39,070 bases of DNA from Gloeomargarita sp. SKYG116. GTDB lineage: Bacteria; Cyanobacteriota; Cyanobacteriia; Gloeomargaritales; Gloeomargaritaceae. The stretch lies in the NCBI GenBank assembly GCA_025056115.1, contig JANWVM010000021.1:1-39070 (forward strand). The letters run 5' to 3'. The notes beneath the pieces were generated by a model. The model was not told the DNA's origin, did no database searches, and worked only from the letters and a program-made list of their open reading frames with translations. Positions 1 through 9,258 of the stretch are shown here, in pieces (position 1 is the first letter of the stretch; each line of letters starts with the position of its first letter). The position numbers and the translations under genes were made by a program.

Positions 1-90
1 CCTGAACGCTTTGACCGGTTGATGCGCGAAGAACTGGCGGTGATTGGGCAAGCCGTGGGTCGTTGGCCGAAGGTGCCGGTGGCGGTTTAG
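1..90 (+). CDS. 3' end of an unidentified gene (partial)
   Basis: An open frame runs from the window edge to a TAG stop at 88-90 and encodes the last 29 residues of a protein, ending in WPKVPVAV. The tail contains a short amphipathic helix (RFDRLMREELAVIGQAV) and no catalytic motif, so the product cannot be named. It is convergent with the DUF1269 gene, whose stop lies 6 bp away. Only the frame and stop are supported. Confidence 0.5.
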   Translation, partial: PERFDRLMREELAVIGQAVGRWPKVPVAV

Positions 91-96
91 TTTTAG

Positions 97-609
97 TCAC
101 TGAGTCGCACTCTGGGGATGCAGCCCCCGGTTAGTCAACACTTCCTGAATCTCGGCCTCCTTGTCTTTCGTCAGGGACGTGCGCAGGACTTTGCCGCCGT
201 AGGGCGCGATTTCCTCCAGCACTTTATCGGGAGTAAATTTGCGCACCAGAATAAACAAGGCTGAGGTGCCAGGACCAAGGGTTTGGCCTAACTCGCGCAT
301 GAAATCGTCATTTACACCAATATCTGAGAGCGCTCCGGCGATAGCTCCTGTTGCGGCGCCAATGGCTGCTCCGGCCAAAGGCATGAAAAACAACGTACCA
401 ATCAATAGTCCCCAAAATCCACCACTGACGGCGCCCATGCCGGTCAGGTTAATCGCTTGGTTGAGCCGCACGTTACCTTCAGGGTCTTTGATCACTACGG
501 CGGCGTCTTCTAGCTCGATGAGATGTTCTTTTTGTAATTTGAGCAGGGCTAACCGGACTTCCTCTGCTTTGTACATATCGTCGTAGGCAATGGCAATCAG
601 CTCGCTCAT
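97..609 (-). CDS. DUF1269 family membrane protein
   Basis: 170 aa. The N-terminus (MSELIAIAYDD...AEEVRLALLKLQ) and the central glycine/alanine-rich hairpin (about residues 58-92, GAVSGGFWGLLIGTLFF followed by a second Gly/Ala stretch) are typical of DUF1269 proteins. These have a ferredoxin-like cytosolic part and a glycine-zipper membrane hairpin. The biochemical role is unknown; members are often linked to stress or envelope functions, but nothing here narrows that down. The start is the ATG at 609. The gene stands alone, divergent from the radical SAM cassette with a 240 bp A/T-rich gap between them. Confidence 0.85.
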   Translation of the reverse strand: MSELIAIAYDDMYKAEEVRLALLKLQKEHLIELEDAAVVIKDPEGNVRLNQAINLTGMGAVSGGFWGLLIGTLFFMPLAGAAIGAATGAIAGALSDIGVNDDFMRELGQTLGPGTSALFILVRKFTPDKVLEEIAPYGGKVLRTSLTKDKEAEIQEVLTNRGLHPQSATQ

Positions 610-773
610 GGGTTTGCTCCAACGCTCCTCTTACCACCCTAACACCTAAAACTAACTCGACCAGGACATGAATCCGAGCCACTTTAGTCTGTCGGAAGGG
701 GAATAGCAAAATCTAGAATGGCGCGGCGCTTCGTGACCTACAAGATGACAAGCTTAAATGACTTTGCTGTAGC

Positions 774-799
774 ACTTGGTATACCACTGCAAGTATAAT
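774..799 (+). promoter_or_regulatory. Candidate operator dyad and -10 box of the radical SAM cassette
   Basis: A perfect 10-bp palindrome TGGTATACCA (777-786) sits inside a wider ACTTG...CAAGT inverted repeat (774-778 and 790-794). It lies directly upstream of a consensus TATAAT at 794-799. No convincing -35 is seen 16-18 bp upstream, which would fit an activated or repressor-occluded promoter. Predicted transcription would begin near 806, giving a leader of about 44 nt before the ATG at 850. That leader contains two GTTTAAA copies (807-813 and 821-827). Pattern evidence only. Confidence 0.4.
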
Positions 800-849
800 T
801 TACACCGTTTAAAGTTTTTTGTTTAAATTTTACATTTTTACTGAGGGTA

Positions 850-2385
850 ATGGACACTGCTTTGGGAAGCTTGATACAATCCTACCATTCAGATTTTGCC
901 AGGGAGGAGGGGAGAATGCTAAGAGTTAGTAGTTATTCCATTTTGTCCACTCCGCTCGAAGATGGCAGTTATGCCTTGATGAATGGTATTAGTGGCGCAG
1001 TCGATTTAGTTCCAGCTGATCTCGGACAGTCATTAGAAAAAGTACTAGCGAACCGGGATCAAGCCTCAGAATTTGAATTCCTAGCTATGCTTGACCTAGA
1101 GACGATTAAGTCTTTTTATGAGCGTGGTCACTTGACAAGTCTCTCTGAGGAAGAAGAAACTCAACAAGTATGTGCTATTGCCGAAGCTACCCACGAGGCT
1201 GCTGCTAAGAAACCCTCGTTTCTAATTGTTCCAAATTTCGATTGCAACTACCGATGTACCTACTGTTTTGAACGCCCACTCCAGAACTCCCTGTATCAAA
1301 AATGTGGAACGGACGTTTCCTCATCCCGAAATATTGTTATGAGTCGTGACCAGGTGGACGCCGTATATCGGTCAATCATCAGTATTCAAAAGCAAGTTGG
1401 GTGTTCACAAGGGGGTCAAATTGTTCTCTATGGCGGTGAACCTCTCGATGCCCAGCATAAATCTATAGTCACTTATATCATTTCCCGAGGATTAGAGGAA
1501 GGATTTTGTTTTGCTGCTATCACCAATGGTCATGATTTGGATGCATATACAGGTCTCCTGGGGCCTAGTCTTATTGAGCAAATTCAAGTGACCTTTGATG
1601 GTCCAAAGACGGTTCATGACCGACGCCGTATTCACCGTGGTCATGAATCTTCATTCGATAAAATAGTAGCCAACATTCATCAGGTCTTGCATGAAACAGA
1701 GGTACAAATTCAGTTACGCATTCATGTGGCACCTGACACCCTCGAGTATTTCGCTGAACTTATCGAATTTTTTGACAGACAGGGTTGGACAAACCACCCT
1801 CGCGTTGTTATCTATGGCAGTACAATTTATGCCAAGAAACAAGATGGGAAAGTTACCAGTACGGTCCCCAATGATCTGATAGCACAGGCACTTTCTTCTG
1901 TGGCTGCTGTCTACTTTAACGTTTACACATGTCCTCCAGCTTTCCATACAACGTCAGCATTGCGACCTGTCTTCGCAGATGGGTCTCGATTTGAGTTACG
2001 AGGTGTTTATTGCAGTGCCAATGTCGGTCTATATGTCTTTGCCCCAGATGGCGGTGTGTACAGTTGTTGGGAATCAATTGGTAAGGAGTGTAGCCGAATT
2101 GGGCATTATGACAGTCCGGAGGGGTTGGTGCTTCATAAAGAGCGAGCAAATCGTTGGTTCAATCGCTCGGTAGCTGCCATTGCAGAGTGCCAGCGCTGTC
2201 CCTATGCTCTTGTGTGTGGGGGGGGATGCGCTCAATACGCTGAATACAACACCGGTTCCCTCTATAAACCATACTGTGATCACTTCCAAGGTGTGTTTCG
2301 GCAAACGCTGGCTGAAAATTTGGAATTTTTCCTTAAGACGGGGCACTCCAAGATGGGCTTCGTCGAAACTGTTGTTCGTGAGTAA
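850..2385 (+). CDS. Radical SAM/SPASM peptide-modifying enzyme
   Basis: 511 aa. The radical SAM CX3CX2C cluster motif is C132-NYR-C136-TY-C139 (followed by FERP), after an N-terminal region of about 120 residues that could bind a leader peptide. A GGEP-type motif (YGGEPLD) follows. The C-terminus carries a SPASM domain for auxiliary Fe-S clusters: C388, C406, C447-QR-C450, C456-GGG-C460 and C476. This architecture is typical of RiPP maturases and anaerobic sulfatase-maturase-like enzymes. They use S-adenosylmethionine to generate a 5'-deoxyadenosyl radical and crosslink or otherwise modify a peptide. The ATG at 850 has a GAGGG Shine-Dalgarno just upstream. The gene is followed after 21 bp by a small exported protein and then by an orphan gene in the same direction. 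It is visibly more A/T-rich than the flanking housekeeping genes. The class is confident; the substrate is inferred from position. Confidence 0.92.
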   Translation: MDTALGSLIQSYHSDFAREEGRMLRVSSYSILSTPLEDGSYALMNGISGAVDLVPADLGQSLEKVLANRDQASEFEFLAMLDLETIKSFYERGHLTSLSEEEETQQVCAIAEATHEAAAKKPSFLIVPNFDCNYRCTYCFERPLQNSLYQKCGTDVSSSRNIVMSRDQVDAVYRSIISIQKQVGCSQGGQIVLYGGEPLDAQHKSIVTYIISRGLEEGFCFAAITNGHDLDAYTGLLGPSLIEQIQVTFDGPKTVHDRRRIHRGHESSFDKIVANIHQVLHETEVQIQLRIHVAPDTLEYFAELIEFFDRQGWTNHPRVVIYGSTIYAKKQDGKVTSTVPNDLIAQALSSVAAVYFNVYTCPPAFHTTSALRPVFADGSRFELRGVYCSANVGLYVFAPDGGVYSCWESIGKECSRIGHYDSPEGLVLHKERANRWFNRSVAAIAECQRCPYALVCGGGCAQYAEYNTGSLYKPYCDHFQGVFRQTLAENLEFFLKTGHSKMGFVETVVRE

Positions 2386-2395
2386 ACTACACTAC

Positions 2396-2401
2396 AGGAG
2401 G
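2396..2401 (+). promoter_or_regulatory. Full AGGAGG ribosome binding site of the putative precursor gene
   Basis: AGGAGG lies 5 nt before the ATG at 2407. It is the best Shine-Dalgarno of the three cassette genes; the enzyme gene has only GAGGG. This fits higher translation of a substrate than of its modifying enzyme, which is an inference. Confidence 0.7.
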
Positions 2402-2406
2402 TTCAA

Positions 2407-2775
2407 ATGGCTGGAAACACTGAACGTCGTAACTTGCTCAAAGCGGCTCTTATTGCTGCTGGTGCGATGCTGCCTGCCGGGATAGCCCGTGCTCAGCAGA
2501 AGCTTCGTCAAACGCTGGAAATTAATCCACAGGCGAAAGCTGTCATGCCCGATGGCAAAATCTTGTCTCGCGAGATGATACTCCAGAGGTTGGGCTTAGA
2601 CCCCAAGACACCTCCCGATGCTTGGTTGACGATCGTAAGGTGTGGGAGTAATGCGGCTGCTTTGGGACCTGAACGGTTACAGAATTTGATACGTGAGGGC
2701 AAGTTGAAGTTGGAGGACTTGGATCCCGAAGTTCAGCAACGCTTGAAACAGATGCCAGCACCAAAGCCTCGCTAA
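2407..2775 (+). CDS. Small Tat-leader protein, putative substrate of the radical SAM enzyme
   Basis: 122 aa; family not recognised. The N-terminus has a twin arginine (R7-R8 in ERRNLLKAA), a hydrophobic stretch (about 13-25) and an A27-R28-A29 signal-peptidase site followed by QQ, which together make a Tat-type signal. The mature part has a charged helix (about 50-64: DGKILSREMILQRLG), then DPKTPPDAWLTIVRCGSN, which holds the only cysteine (C79) and a tryptophan (W73), then a second helical region and a proline/basic tail. It lies 21 bp after the SPASM gene and 29 bp before the third gene, with a full AGGAGG site. Size, position and the single conserved-looking WLTIVRCGSN segment suggest a peptide or protein modified in the cytoplasm and then exported folded. 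Alternatively it is an exported accessory protein and the true substrate lies elsewhere. Confidence 0.75.
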   Translation: MAGNTERRNLLKAALIAAGAMLPAGIARAQQKLRQTLEINPQAKAVMPDGKILSREMILQRLGLDPKTPPDAWLTIVRCGSNAAALGPERLQNLIREGKLKLEDLDPEVQQRLKQMPAPKPR

Positions 2776-2804
2776 ATTTTCTCAGTAATCAGGGAGGCCA
2801 ACGT

Positions 2805-3728
2805 GTGAGTTCGTGGGCTAGTCGAGTTACGACCAAGGTACTTGGCTGGCTTAAAAAGCATCTTTATCGCTTTAACCCGTTTACTTCTGGAGATGGGGTG
2901 AGTGAAGCTAGACAAACAGCGCTAGCTGAGCTTGCCCTGCTCTGTTTTGAGTTAAGCCAAAATCCTAGGGCTGAAACTAAAGTATTAGCATTGGCTATTC
3001 GAGGCCGGCAAGTTCTGGAAGCAGCATACCGGCAACCCGAGCTCCATAAGTTTATTCACAGGGGACCTGAGCAAGCCTTCAACGGACACTTGCTAATGTG
3101 GTTAGCCTTGCCACGACCCGTAGCAGAATCTATGGTGCCGAAAGAAGAATTCCAAGCAGTCTTCGACCACCGGGCTATTGCTCACGCTGGGTGGTCTCCG
3201 ATGCGACTGCTGGAATTGCGTTACTTTTTGGATTACTCCGGTTTGCACCACAACCTGCCGACTCCACGGCTACTTCTCGAAGAGGCGCTTGACTTGTCCA
3301 GCCTCGACCCTTACGAAATGAGTGTTACGGCAATTTACGACCTCACGCATGTCATCTTCTACGCCACTCACTTCGGTAGATGGCCTGGTGCCATACTCAC
3401 CGGTACTGAACGTGAGCATCTTGCAGCGCTGATTCTAGTCCTACAAGACCGTTTGATTAATCAAAAACACTGGGATTTAGTGGCGGAAATCATCCTTTCT
3501 CGTCGTTGCTTATGTCTTCCCGATGAGCAGCTAGCTACAGAACCAGCCTGGTATGCATTGGCTCAAGCACAAGAGGAAGAGGGTGCATACAACGCTCAAC
3601 TCTTACAACAGTTGCTGGTTGCCCAGGGCATGGAACTGGAATTGGCTGCTGACTATGTGTTCCTACGGTGCTATCACCCCTGTCTGGTAACAGCCATGGC
3701 AGGTCTGTTCCCAGAACCGTTGATCTAA
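2805..3728 (+). CDS. Unrecognised helical protein of the radical SAM cassette
   Basis: 307 aa, starting at GTG with GGGAGG at 2792-2797, 7 nt upstream. There is no signal peptide or membrane segment. The protein looks all-helical: helices around 35-75, a HKFIHRGPEQAFNGHLLMWLALP segment, and a histidine-rich block ending DLTHVIFYATHFG (about residues 184-196). That block recalls the THxxFYxTDFG signature I associate with DUF6895 proteins, a resemblance from memory only. The C-terminal half (EEEGAYNAQLLQQLLVAQG) resembles helical-repeat packing. It follows the putative precursor after 29 bp, so it probably belongs to the same transcript. It could be a leader-binding, scaffolding or second tailoring protein. 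No catalytic motif is obvious. Confidence 0.7.
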   Translation: MSSWASRVTTKVLGWLKKHLYRFNPFTSGDGVSEARQTALAELALLCFELSQNPRAETKVLALAIRGRQVLEAAYRQPELHKFIHRGPEQAFNGHLLMWLALPRPVAESMVPKEEFQAVFDHRAIAHAGWSPMRLLELRYFLDYSGLHHNLPTPRLLLEEALDLSSLDPYEMSVTAIYDLTHVIFYATHFGRWPGAILTGTEREHLAALILVLQDRLINQKHWDLVAEIILSRRCLCLPDEQLATEPAWYALAQAQEEEGAYNAQLLQQLLVAQGMELELAADYVFLRCYHPCLVTAMAGLFPEPLI

Positions 3729-3765
3729 GCCCCACCGGAAAATCTATAGAAAAGCACTTAGCTGC

Positions 3766-4121
3766 TTGGGGGGAGCAGGCCGTAAGCCGGGTTCTGTTCG
3801 AGGGCGATTATCTATCTGGGATGACGGTTACCCGCCACCTCTAGCGGTTCTCATCAACGGGACGGGAAAAAGACCAACCCTTGTCCCTCCACCTTGCTCT
3901 CAACCGGGGTTTACCGAGCCAGTACCTCACGGTACTGCTGGTGCGCTCTTACCGCACCTTTGCACCCTTGCCTGTGAGGTTTCCCTCCATCGGCGGTGTG
4001 TTTCTGTGGCACTTTCCTCACGCTCGCGCGTACTGGGCGTTACCCAGCGGTTTGGTCTTTCGAGAGCCCGGACTTTCCTCAGATGCCGAAGCATCCGCAA
4101 TCGCCACACCTACTCCCCTTC
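3766..4121 (-). ncRNA. rnpB: RNase P RNA
   Basis: Reading the minus strand, the 5' core GAGGAAAGTCCGGGCTC (complement of 4064-4080) and the 3' core ACAGAACCCGGCTTACGGC (complement of 3779-3797) are the universally conserved type-A RNase P signatures. The ends form a 10-bp P1 helix: GGGGAGTAGG (complement of 4109-4118) pairs fully with CCTGCTCCCC (complement of 3770-3779), with one G-U. This ribozyme removes 5' leaders from pre-tRNAs. The exact termini are uncertain by a few bases. The gene is convergent with the radical SAM cassette and divergent from rpsA. Confidence 0.95.
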
Positions 4122-8772: not shown

Positions 8773-9258
8773 ATGGCTTTAGTCGCACAAGTGATTGCAA
8801 ATGCAGATGAAGAACTGCGTTACCCGACCAGCGGGGAATTGCAGGCGATTCGGGATTTCTGCGCAACGGGTGAACAACGGCTCCGCATTGCCAGTATCCT
8901 AGCCGAGAACGAGAAAAAAATTATAGACAAAGCCGTACAACAACTCTGGCAACTACACCCGGATTACATTCTCCCCGGCGGCAACGCTTACGGTCAGCGG
9001 CAACGGGCCTTGTGCCTGCGGGACTACGGCTGGTATCTGCGTTTGATCACCTACGGGATCGTGGCTGGGGATAAAGAACCCATCGAAAGCATCGGCCTGA
9101 TTGGGGTGCGGGAAATGTACAACTCTCTAGGCGTGCCGGTGGTAGGGATGGCCGACGCGATTCGTTGCCTAAAAACGGCGGCCCTGGCGCTCCTGGATGA
9201 GGAAGATGCGGCGATTGCGGCCGATTACTTCGACTACGTGATTCAGGCGATGTCCTGA
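8773..9258 (+). CDS. apcD: Allophycocyanin-B alpha subunit
   Basis: 161 aa phycobiliprotein of the phycobilisome core. It acts as a terminal emitter and has been linked to energy transfer to photosystem I. The chromophore cysteine is in [14 protein letters not shown] (residue about 81). ApcD-type residues distinguish it from ApcA: the N-terminus [47 protein letters not shown] and [15 protein letters not shown]. It ends in the family-typical [20 protein letters not shown] site precedes the ATG. A lysozyme-like gene follows 15 bp later on the same strand. Confidence 0.95.

Follow-up and report, generated by a model that had tools for sequence, protein, structure and literature searches.

A putative Tat-targeted precursor gene beside a radical SAM/SPASM enzyme gene in the cyanobacterium Gloeomargarita sp. 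SKYG116

Can a small protein be both the substrate of a radical SAM peptide-modifying enzyme and cargo of the twin-arginine (Tat) export pathway? This question is raised by a 122-aa open reading frame at 2407-2775 on the plus strand of a 39,070-nucleotide stretch of Gloeomargarita sp. SKYG116 (contig JANWVM010000021.1; the whole stretch is referred to here as the window), in which a phycobilisome protein gene at 8773-9258 indicates a cyanobacterial host. The first-pass annotation had described this frame as a precursor candidate beside a RiPP-type radical SAM enzyme, and our analysis supports that description, as the same pair of genes recurs in Desulfocicer vacuolatum DSM 3385, a member of another phylum. 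Judging from sequence comparisons, we consider it moderately probable that the product of 2407-2775 is either a radical-SAM RiPP precursor targeted to Tat or a small crosslinked exported protein. The radical SAM gene (which ends at 2385), the precursor gene and a DUF6895 gene (2805-3728) form a tight co-directional row, and the features of this locus are as follows:

613 to 3769, no strand: stretch absent from the congener G783, borders approximate (blastn)
916 to 2385, plus strand: radical SAM/SPASM peptide maturase, 489 aa from the ATG at 916 (PF04055, TIGR04085, invariant Cys)
2396 to 2401, plus strand: AGGAGG Shine-Dalgarno sequence of the precursor gene, as read from the sequence, ending 5 bases ahead of the ATG at 2407
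2407 to 2775, plus strand: candidate precursor gene, 122 aa, homologous to Desulfocicer L003:7487-7888 and L003:7962-8315
2407 to 2493, plus strand: twin-arginine signal peptide, residues 1-29 (TIGR01409 covers residues 5-29; predicted cleavage after A-R-A)
2602 to 2664, plus strand: residues 66-86 (PKTPPDAWLTIVRCGSNAAAL), a conserved block and the proposed site of modification, with W73 at 2623-2625 and C79 at 2641-2643
2805 to 3728, plus strand: DUF6895 protein, 307 aa, GTG start, candidate tailoring enzyme, epimerase by family (PF21836, 147 bits over 23.8)
3767 to 4117, minus strand: RNase P RNA (rnpB), right border of the cassette (Rfam RF00010, 263.6 bits)

With regard to the origin of this row, blastn against congener G783 (L033) matched window positions 1-612 and 3770 onwards with 16 bases between the two matches, and a DUF1269 gene abuts rnpB in this congener where the window holds about 3.1 kb; in five other congeners, rnpB has other neighbours. 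The radical SAM gene was found in none of seven close relatives (six congeners and one family member) in a search run without a positive control, and the same query matched G000 and four more of 386 genomes. GC content differs modestly (0.44-0.52 in the cassette versus 0.51-0.64 in the flanking 8 kb), nothing credible was found in the way of terminal repeats or mobile-element ends of the cassette, and a scan for promoters and terminators gave no excess over shuffled sequence. A cassette of about 3 kb was probably gained horizontally, transfer being the simplest reading; repeated loss is an alternative that we do not favour.

The enzyme that precedes the candidate precursor belongs to the radical SAM and SPASM families, with 30.1 bits against PF04055 (over 29.5) and 49.2 bits against TIGR04085 (over 27). 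Its frame can be opened at 850, and the ATG at 916 is preferred as the start because of a strong GGAGG-type ribosome site and agreement with the start of the Desulfocicer homologue. The CxxxCxxC cysteines (C110, C114 and C117) and the SPASM cysteines (C366, C384, C425, C428, C434, C438 and C454) are invariant in all six aligned homologues. None of the specific NCBIfam maturase cut-offs compared (CefB, TIGR04463, Clo7bot, PapB, nif11, SCIFF, QhpD, YhhB and FxsB) was reached, the best score being 111.5 of 600 bits for CefB (NF038107), and the Desulfocicer enzyme likewise stays below all of them (best, 129.4 of 525 bits). On these profile scores the enzyme is assigned to an unnamed subfamily, since both enzymes miss every specific cut-off. 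An AlphaFold2 model of the enzyme (pLDDT 74.9, pTM 0.77) matched ChlB (Z 23.0, residues 94-479), the thioether-forming RiPP maturase CteB (Z 22.1, residues 5-470), an anaerobic sulfatase maturase (Z 21.4, residues 99-480) and TigE (Z 20.2, residues 1-477), where matches within 1 Z unit count as tied and absence from the match list excludes no family. Residues 1-97 of the model form three strands followed by helices, and the CteB and TigE alignments include the N-terminal 90 residues; as seen within the whole-enzyme model, this arrangement suits a RiPP recognition element and marks a candidate domain of that kind.

The leader of the 2407-2775 protein is as the first-pass annotation had it, with the twin arginine R7-R8, a hydrophobic stretch and A27-R28-A29, which together give the Tat signal pattern (RR-x-hydrophobic-hydrophobic-K, h-region, A-x-A). 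The protein passes NCBIfam TIGR01409 (18.5 bits, cut-off 16.7, E 0.0019) and falls below the gathering score of the shorter Pfam model PF10518 (13.8 bits versus 22.7). A Tat-leader rule (RR-x-hydrophobic-hydrophobic, then an uncharged stretch that closes with small-x-Ala), composed with knowledge of the 2407-2775 sequence, was applied to the 303 stop-to-stop ORFs of the window that reach 60 aa or more. It selected this frame alone, and none of 8790 ORFs across 30 base shuffles of the window. When the rule was applied to the other loci (2157 ORFs, with overlapping loci counted repeatedly and the window's own copies L001, L004, L013 and L020 excluded), it returned ten rows, eight of which were the two Desulfocicer precursors in repeated copies and two of which were other proteins (L016 and L048). 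TatC was found in both genomes.

Behind the leader, W73 and C79 are the sole Trp and the sole Cys of the entire precursor, and W73 is its only aromatic residue, as the protein contains no Phe, Tyr or His. Signal cleavage would leave a 93-aa protein in which no second cleavage site is visible. A structure model of the precursor showed no confident fold (pLDDT 56; with low confidence and an alignment of three rows, it says little), which would be expected for a peptide substrate. No Nif11 leader domain matched the precursor up to E 1 in NCBIfam or Pfam, using a method that does detect this domain in L005, where the precursor lies next to an enzyme with 33% identity. The motif CxxxD/E is the substrate motif of PapB-type ranthipeptides; it is absent here, residue +4 after C79 being A83. 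A search of PDB sequences with the precursor profile yielded matches with E values of 0.26 or worse, which were dismissed as chance.

A scan of species genomes with the enzyme, which finds close relatives only and may thus pass over other homologues, identified one locus, that of Desulfocicer, with 44-45% identity. Two tandem genes directly behind the Desulfocicer enzyme encode proteins of 133 and 117 aa with the leaders NRREFIK and DRRNFIK, and the order of enzyme and precursor is the same as in the window, a conserved pair of the kind that characterizes a RiPP locus. The tandem genes are followed by a gene for a B12-type radical SAM protein that matches TIGR03975, the RiPP maturation radical SAM C-methyltransferase, with 502 bits over 282; this marks the Desulfocicer cluster as a RiPP cluster on evidence independent of the precursors. 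Both Desulfocicer precursors score above the TIGR01409 cut-off (20.1 and 18.6 bits), so that all three precursors pass it, and R7, R8 and K12 are invariant among the three, which share the leader RR-x-[FL]-[IL]-K.

Alignment of the three precursors, two of which are paralogues from a single genome, showed 36 of the 122 window residues to be invariant, with 14 of 21 in residues 66-86 (P66, T68-L74, C79-A83 and L86) as compared to 22 of 101 elsewhere. The similarity between the window precursor and one Desulfocicer precursor (pairwise E 2e-21) is likewise concentrated in this block. Trp and Cys tend towards conservation in any protein family; here RR, TPPDAWL and CGSNA are each invariant in 3/3. 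The earlier suggestion that W73 and C79 would be kept in homologues next to the same enzyme thus held in every precursor available, and loss of these residues, which would have spoken against the proposal, was not observed. The description of a single-cysteine segment applies to the window protein, in which C79 stands alone, and not to the family: in Desulfocicer the block of either precursor contains two Cys (WLAxCGGGCGSN), with a spacing of 8 from Trp to the last Cys.

Searches with the precursor in wider samples added no further member. In the cyanobacterial phylum sample, 2 of 386 genomes matched, i.e., this genome and G300, and the latter match (E 0.0097, inside a 526-codon frame) was rejected as chance. 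In the desulfobacterial phylum sample, matches occurred in seven of 395 genomes, with Desulfocicer as the sole real one; the others (G425, G429, G698, G719, G723 and G773; E 1e-5 to 0.01) were rejected, as the frames inspected were without the PPDAW/CGSN block, the rejection of G773, G429 and G425 resting on weak score and partial coverage, given that the inspected frames may not be the matched ones. Within the family of Desulfocicer, the precursor was present in one of 86 genomes. Plasmids yielded no homologue with either precursor tried as query, and none of 46 and 57 pattern matches in viral contigs was confirmed. TIGR04117, to which one Desulfocicer leader showed a weak match, was uninformative (2/198 genomes, both below cut-off). 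The system appears to be a rare Tat-signal variant of radical SAM RiPP systems, one that was probably transferred.

Loci of weaker enzyme relatives (L005, L038, L006, L007, L008, L050, L051, L052 and L053) contained no convincing Tat-like leader beside the enzyme. Some of them have other contents. In the cyanobacterium G019 (L005/L038; L005:1450-2970(-), 3312-3644(-) and 2-1431(-)), the neighbours of the 33% identical SPASM enzyme are a 2OG-Fe(II) oxygenase, a tryptophan halogenase and a Nif11-leader peptide whose end reads GGFYYGNSRGSSCSQW; this is a candidate cluster for a halogenated radical-SAM RiPP. Two related SPASM loci from further families of this phylum (L006:1336-1446(+) and L008:2797-2904(-)) encode a 36-37 aa peptide ending Cys-Cys ... 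AGCHD, which matches no NCBIfam model and lies near an ORF that by eye is methyltransferase-like. A Methylomagnum ishizawai plasmid (L053) carries CefA, a TIGR04463 enzyme, a RiPP C-methyltransferase and a 2OG-Fe(II) oxygenase, and parallels the Desulfocicer locus, including its C-methyltransferase.

The third gene of the row, which is preceded by AGGGAGG at 2791-2797, encodes a DUF6895 protein with 19-24% identity to the other members of a seven-member alignment (the window protein and six others), in which H182, D224, E228, Y290 and H291 are invariant. Among 367 cyanobacterial genomes, DUF6895 was detected in three, including the present one, and it was not found in the Desulfocicer genome, which suggests an optional tailoring gene rather than a core part. 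A sequence search with this protein gave weak bacteriophytochrome matches (E 0.14 or worse), which were rejected. Beyond the window, six loci with DUF6895 were compared, two in G191 and G346 and four on plasmids. Each of the five that carry annotation encodes a protein of 62-130 aa within 2 kb upstream; the sixth record is unannotated. Short ORFs are common near any gene, and the short proteins beside other DUF6895 genes, 6/6 of which lack a Pfam family, are a hint only. At L043:8845-9286(+) in G191, an ABC transporter and a DUF6895 protein of two domains lie behind two near-identical peptides of 64 aa, which is likely a DUF6895 RiPP cluster without radical SAM; on Streptomyces fungicidicus plasmid p1 (L046:6520-8405(+)), a cytochrome P450 gene and a gene for a hypothetical protein of 62 aa are followed by a pair of DUF6895-like genes next to each other. 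As far as the available part of the source describes it, PF21836 includes an enzyme reported to epimerise a lasso peptide (ACS Catal. 2026, doi 10.1021/acscatal.5c08590, reference 371 of PMC13352647); the window operon has this family in common with the lasso-peptide system and differs from it, on the same description, in that it has no lasso cyclase or peptidase and is paired with a radical SAM enzyme.

For the favoured reading, i.e., a Tat-targeted precursor or small crosslinked exported protein, we propose the following sequence of events. In the cytoplasm, the SPASM enzyme would bind the precursor, probably via its N-terminal domain, a candidate for peptide binding, and 5'-deoxyadenosyl radical chemistry would modify the TPPDAWL...CGSNA block, most likely through a thioether from C79. 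A thioether is favoured in view of the conservation of CGSNA, which equals that of DAWL, and of the thioether enzymes that rank with the best structural matches; S81, N82, A83, L86 and D71, all invariant, are candidate acceptors. The DUF6895 protein would probably epimerise one residue, after which the modified chain may leave by Tat and be cut by signal peptidase I after A29. Signal peptidase I and Tat would then do what a dedicated leader protease and an ABC exporter do for ordinary RiPPs. The operon contains neither a transporter nor a protease gene; signal peptidase I is the likely leader protease for this reason, and this gene content is in keeping with the first-pass remark that leader removal is normally the task of dedicated proteases.

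Several points weigh against this reading: the three precursors come from two genomes, the enzyme scores below the specific maturase cut-offs, no transporter or protease gene marks the operon as a natural-product cluster, the leader is below the PF10518 threshold, and DUF6895 is absent in Desulfocicer. Rather than a diffusible natural product, the locus might yield a periplasmic or lumenal protein that carries a crosslink or cofactor derived from the peptide, comparable to the quinohemoprotein amine dehydrogenase gamma subunit, in which QhpD forms thioethers before export. Tat is the usual route of proteins completed in the cytoplasm, and the 93 residues left without a visible second cleavage site would suit such a protein, as would the distance of 6 between W73 and C79, which, in the available part of PMC7876137, is that of Cys37 and Trp43 in QhpC in the opposite order. 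We nevertheless regard this explanation as unlikely, given that the enzyme reaches 52 bits against TIGR03906 (QhpD) where the cut-off is 453, the operon has no gene for a partner subunit, flavoprotein or protease, and Desulfocicer combines a Trp-to-last-Cys spacing of 8 with a C-methyltransferase. According to the same portion of that source, QhpC shares with the window protein a radical SAM/SPASM enzyme and a Cys-Trp polypeptide that would end in the periplasm, but its 28-residue leader is removed by the protease QhpE and it exits via the ABC transporter QhpF (PMC7876137), genes for which are lacking in the window operon.

The invariance of W73 as the only aromatic residue, in 3/3 precursors, would also suit a carbon-carbon (cyclophane-type) link centred on this Trp, with C79 in another role, e.g., metal binding, and the cyclophane-forming models YhhB and FxsB do occur among the weaker enzyme matches. 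Their scores (61 of 445 bits and 42 of 370 bits), the presence of the thioether enzyme CteB among the best full-length structural matches, and the equal conservation of CGSNA and DAWL argue against such a link, which we hold to be rather improbable. A further proposal takes the RR-leader for a recognition leader that merely resembles a Tat signal, with the peptide exported otherwise or kept inside; it would account for the PF10518 score and for Leu in the window protein at the position where the motif usually has Phe, yet all three precursors pass TIGR01409, the two phyla have RR and K12 in common, and TatC is present, so that we give it little credence. That an ordinary small Tat-secreted protein lies by chance beside a radical SAM gene is hardly credible: the family has three known members only, but a second phylum shows the two genes in the same order, with the precursor duplicated, and the precursor was found in no other genome searched.

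The window enzyme and its Desulfocicer counterpart share with known radical SAM/SPASM RiPP maturases (CefB NF038107, TIGR04463, Clo7bot TIGR04334 and CteB) the CxxxCxxC core, the SPASM cysteines, an N-terminal domain (here a candidate recognition element) and an adjoining small gene for the putative substrate; the substrates differ in carrying a Tat signal and in having one Cys (window) or two (Desulfocicer) instead of Cys repeats. As described in the available part of PMC12452194, bufferins and oxazolins, which are MNIO RiPPs with a Sec signal, likewise carry a signal peptide where a classical leader would be expected and are modified before export; the window system has a radical SAM enzyme rather than an MNIO, Tat rather than Sec, and no DUF2063 partner. 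The same part of that source terms Sec signal peptides on RiPP precursors 'highly unusual', reports them for bufferins, and poses as open how signal-peptide RiPP precursors escape export before modification; lipoprotein-signal RiPPs are described in the accessible portion of PMC12636315. The words 'Tat' and 'twin-arginine' did not occur in the searched text of PMC12452194, PMC12636315 or the leader-protease review PMC10885120, and no Tat-signal RiPP was found in the open-licence literature searched, which is not proof of absence. The first-pass view that Tat signals on RiPP precursors would be unusual agrees with this, Sec signals being already called rare in the available part of PMC12452194. 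Tat export of a radical-SAM-modified peptide has rarely if ever been reported.

Tentatively, and with somewhat less confidence than we place in the precursor assignment itself, these loci may represent a class of radical-SAM RiPPs whose Tat signal peptide stands in for three things together, the leader, its protease and a dedicated exporter, with Tat holding the cargo until it is finished and with a core pair that occurs in distant phyla with differing tailoring enzymes. Tailoring in such a class would involve a DUF6895 epimerase in the cyanobacterium, which would combine a radical crosslink with a D-residue, and a B12 C-methyltransferase in Desulfocicer. If this is true, Tat would solve the premature-export problem raised for Sec-signal RiPPs, and a Tat-routed radical-SAM precursor would offer a direct answer to that question in one system together with a genetic handle. 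Exported proteins would also join the known targets of radical SAM peptide chemistry, and this chemistry would be coupled to DUF6895, the biochemistry of which is just now being reported.
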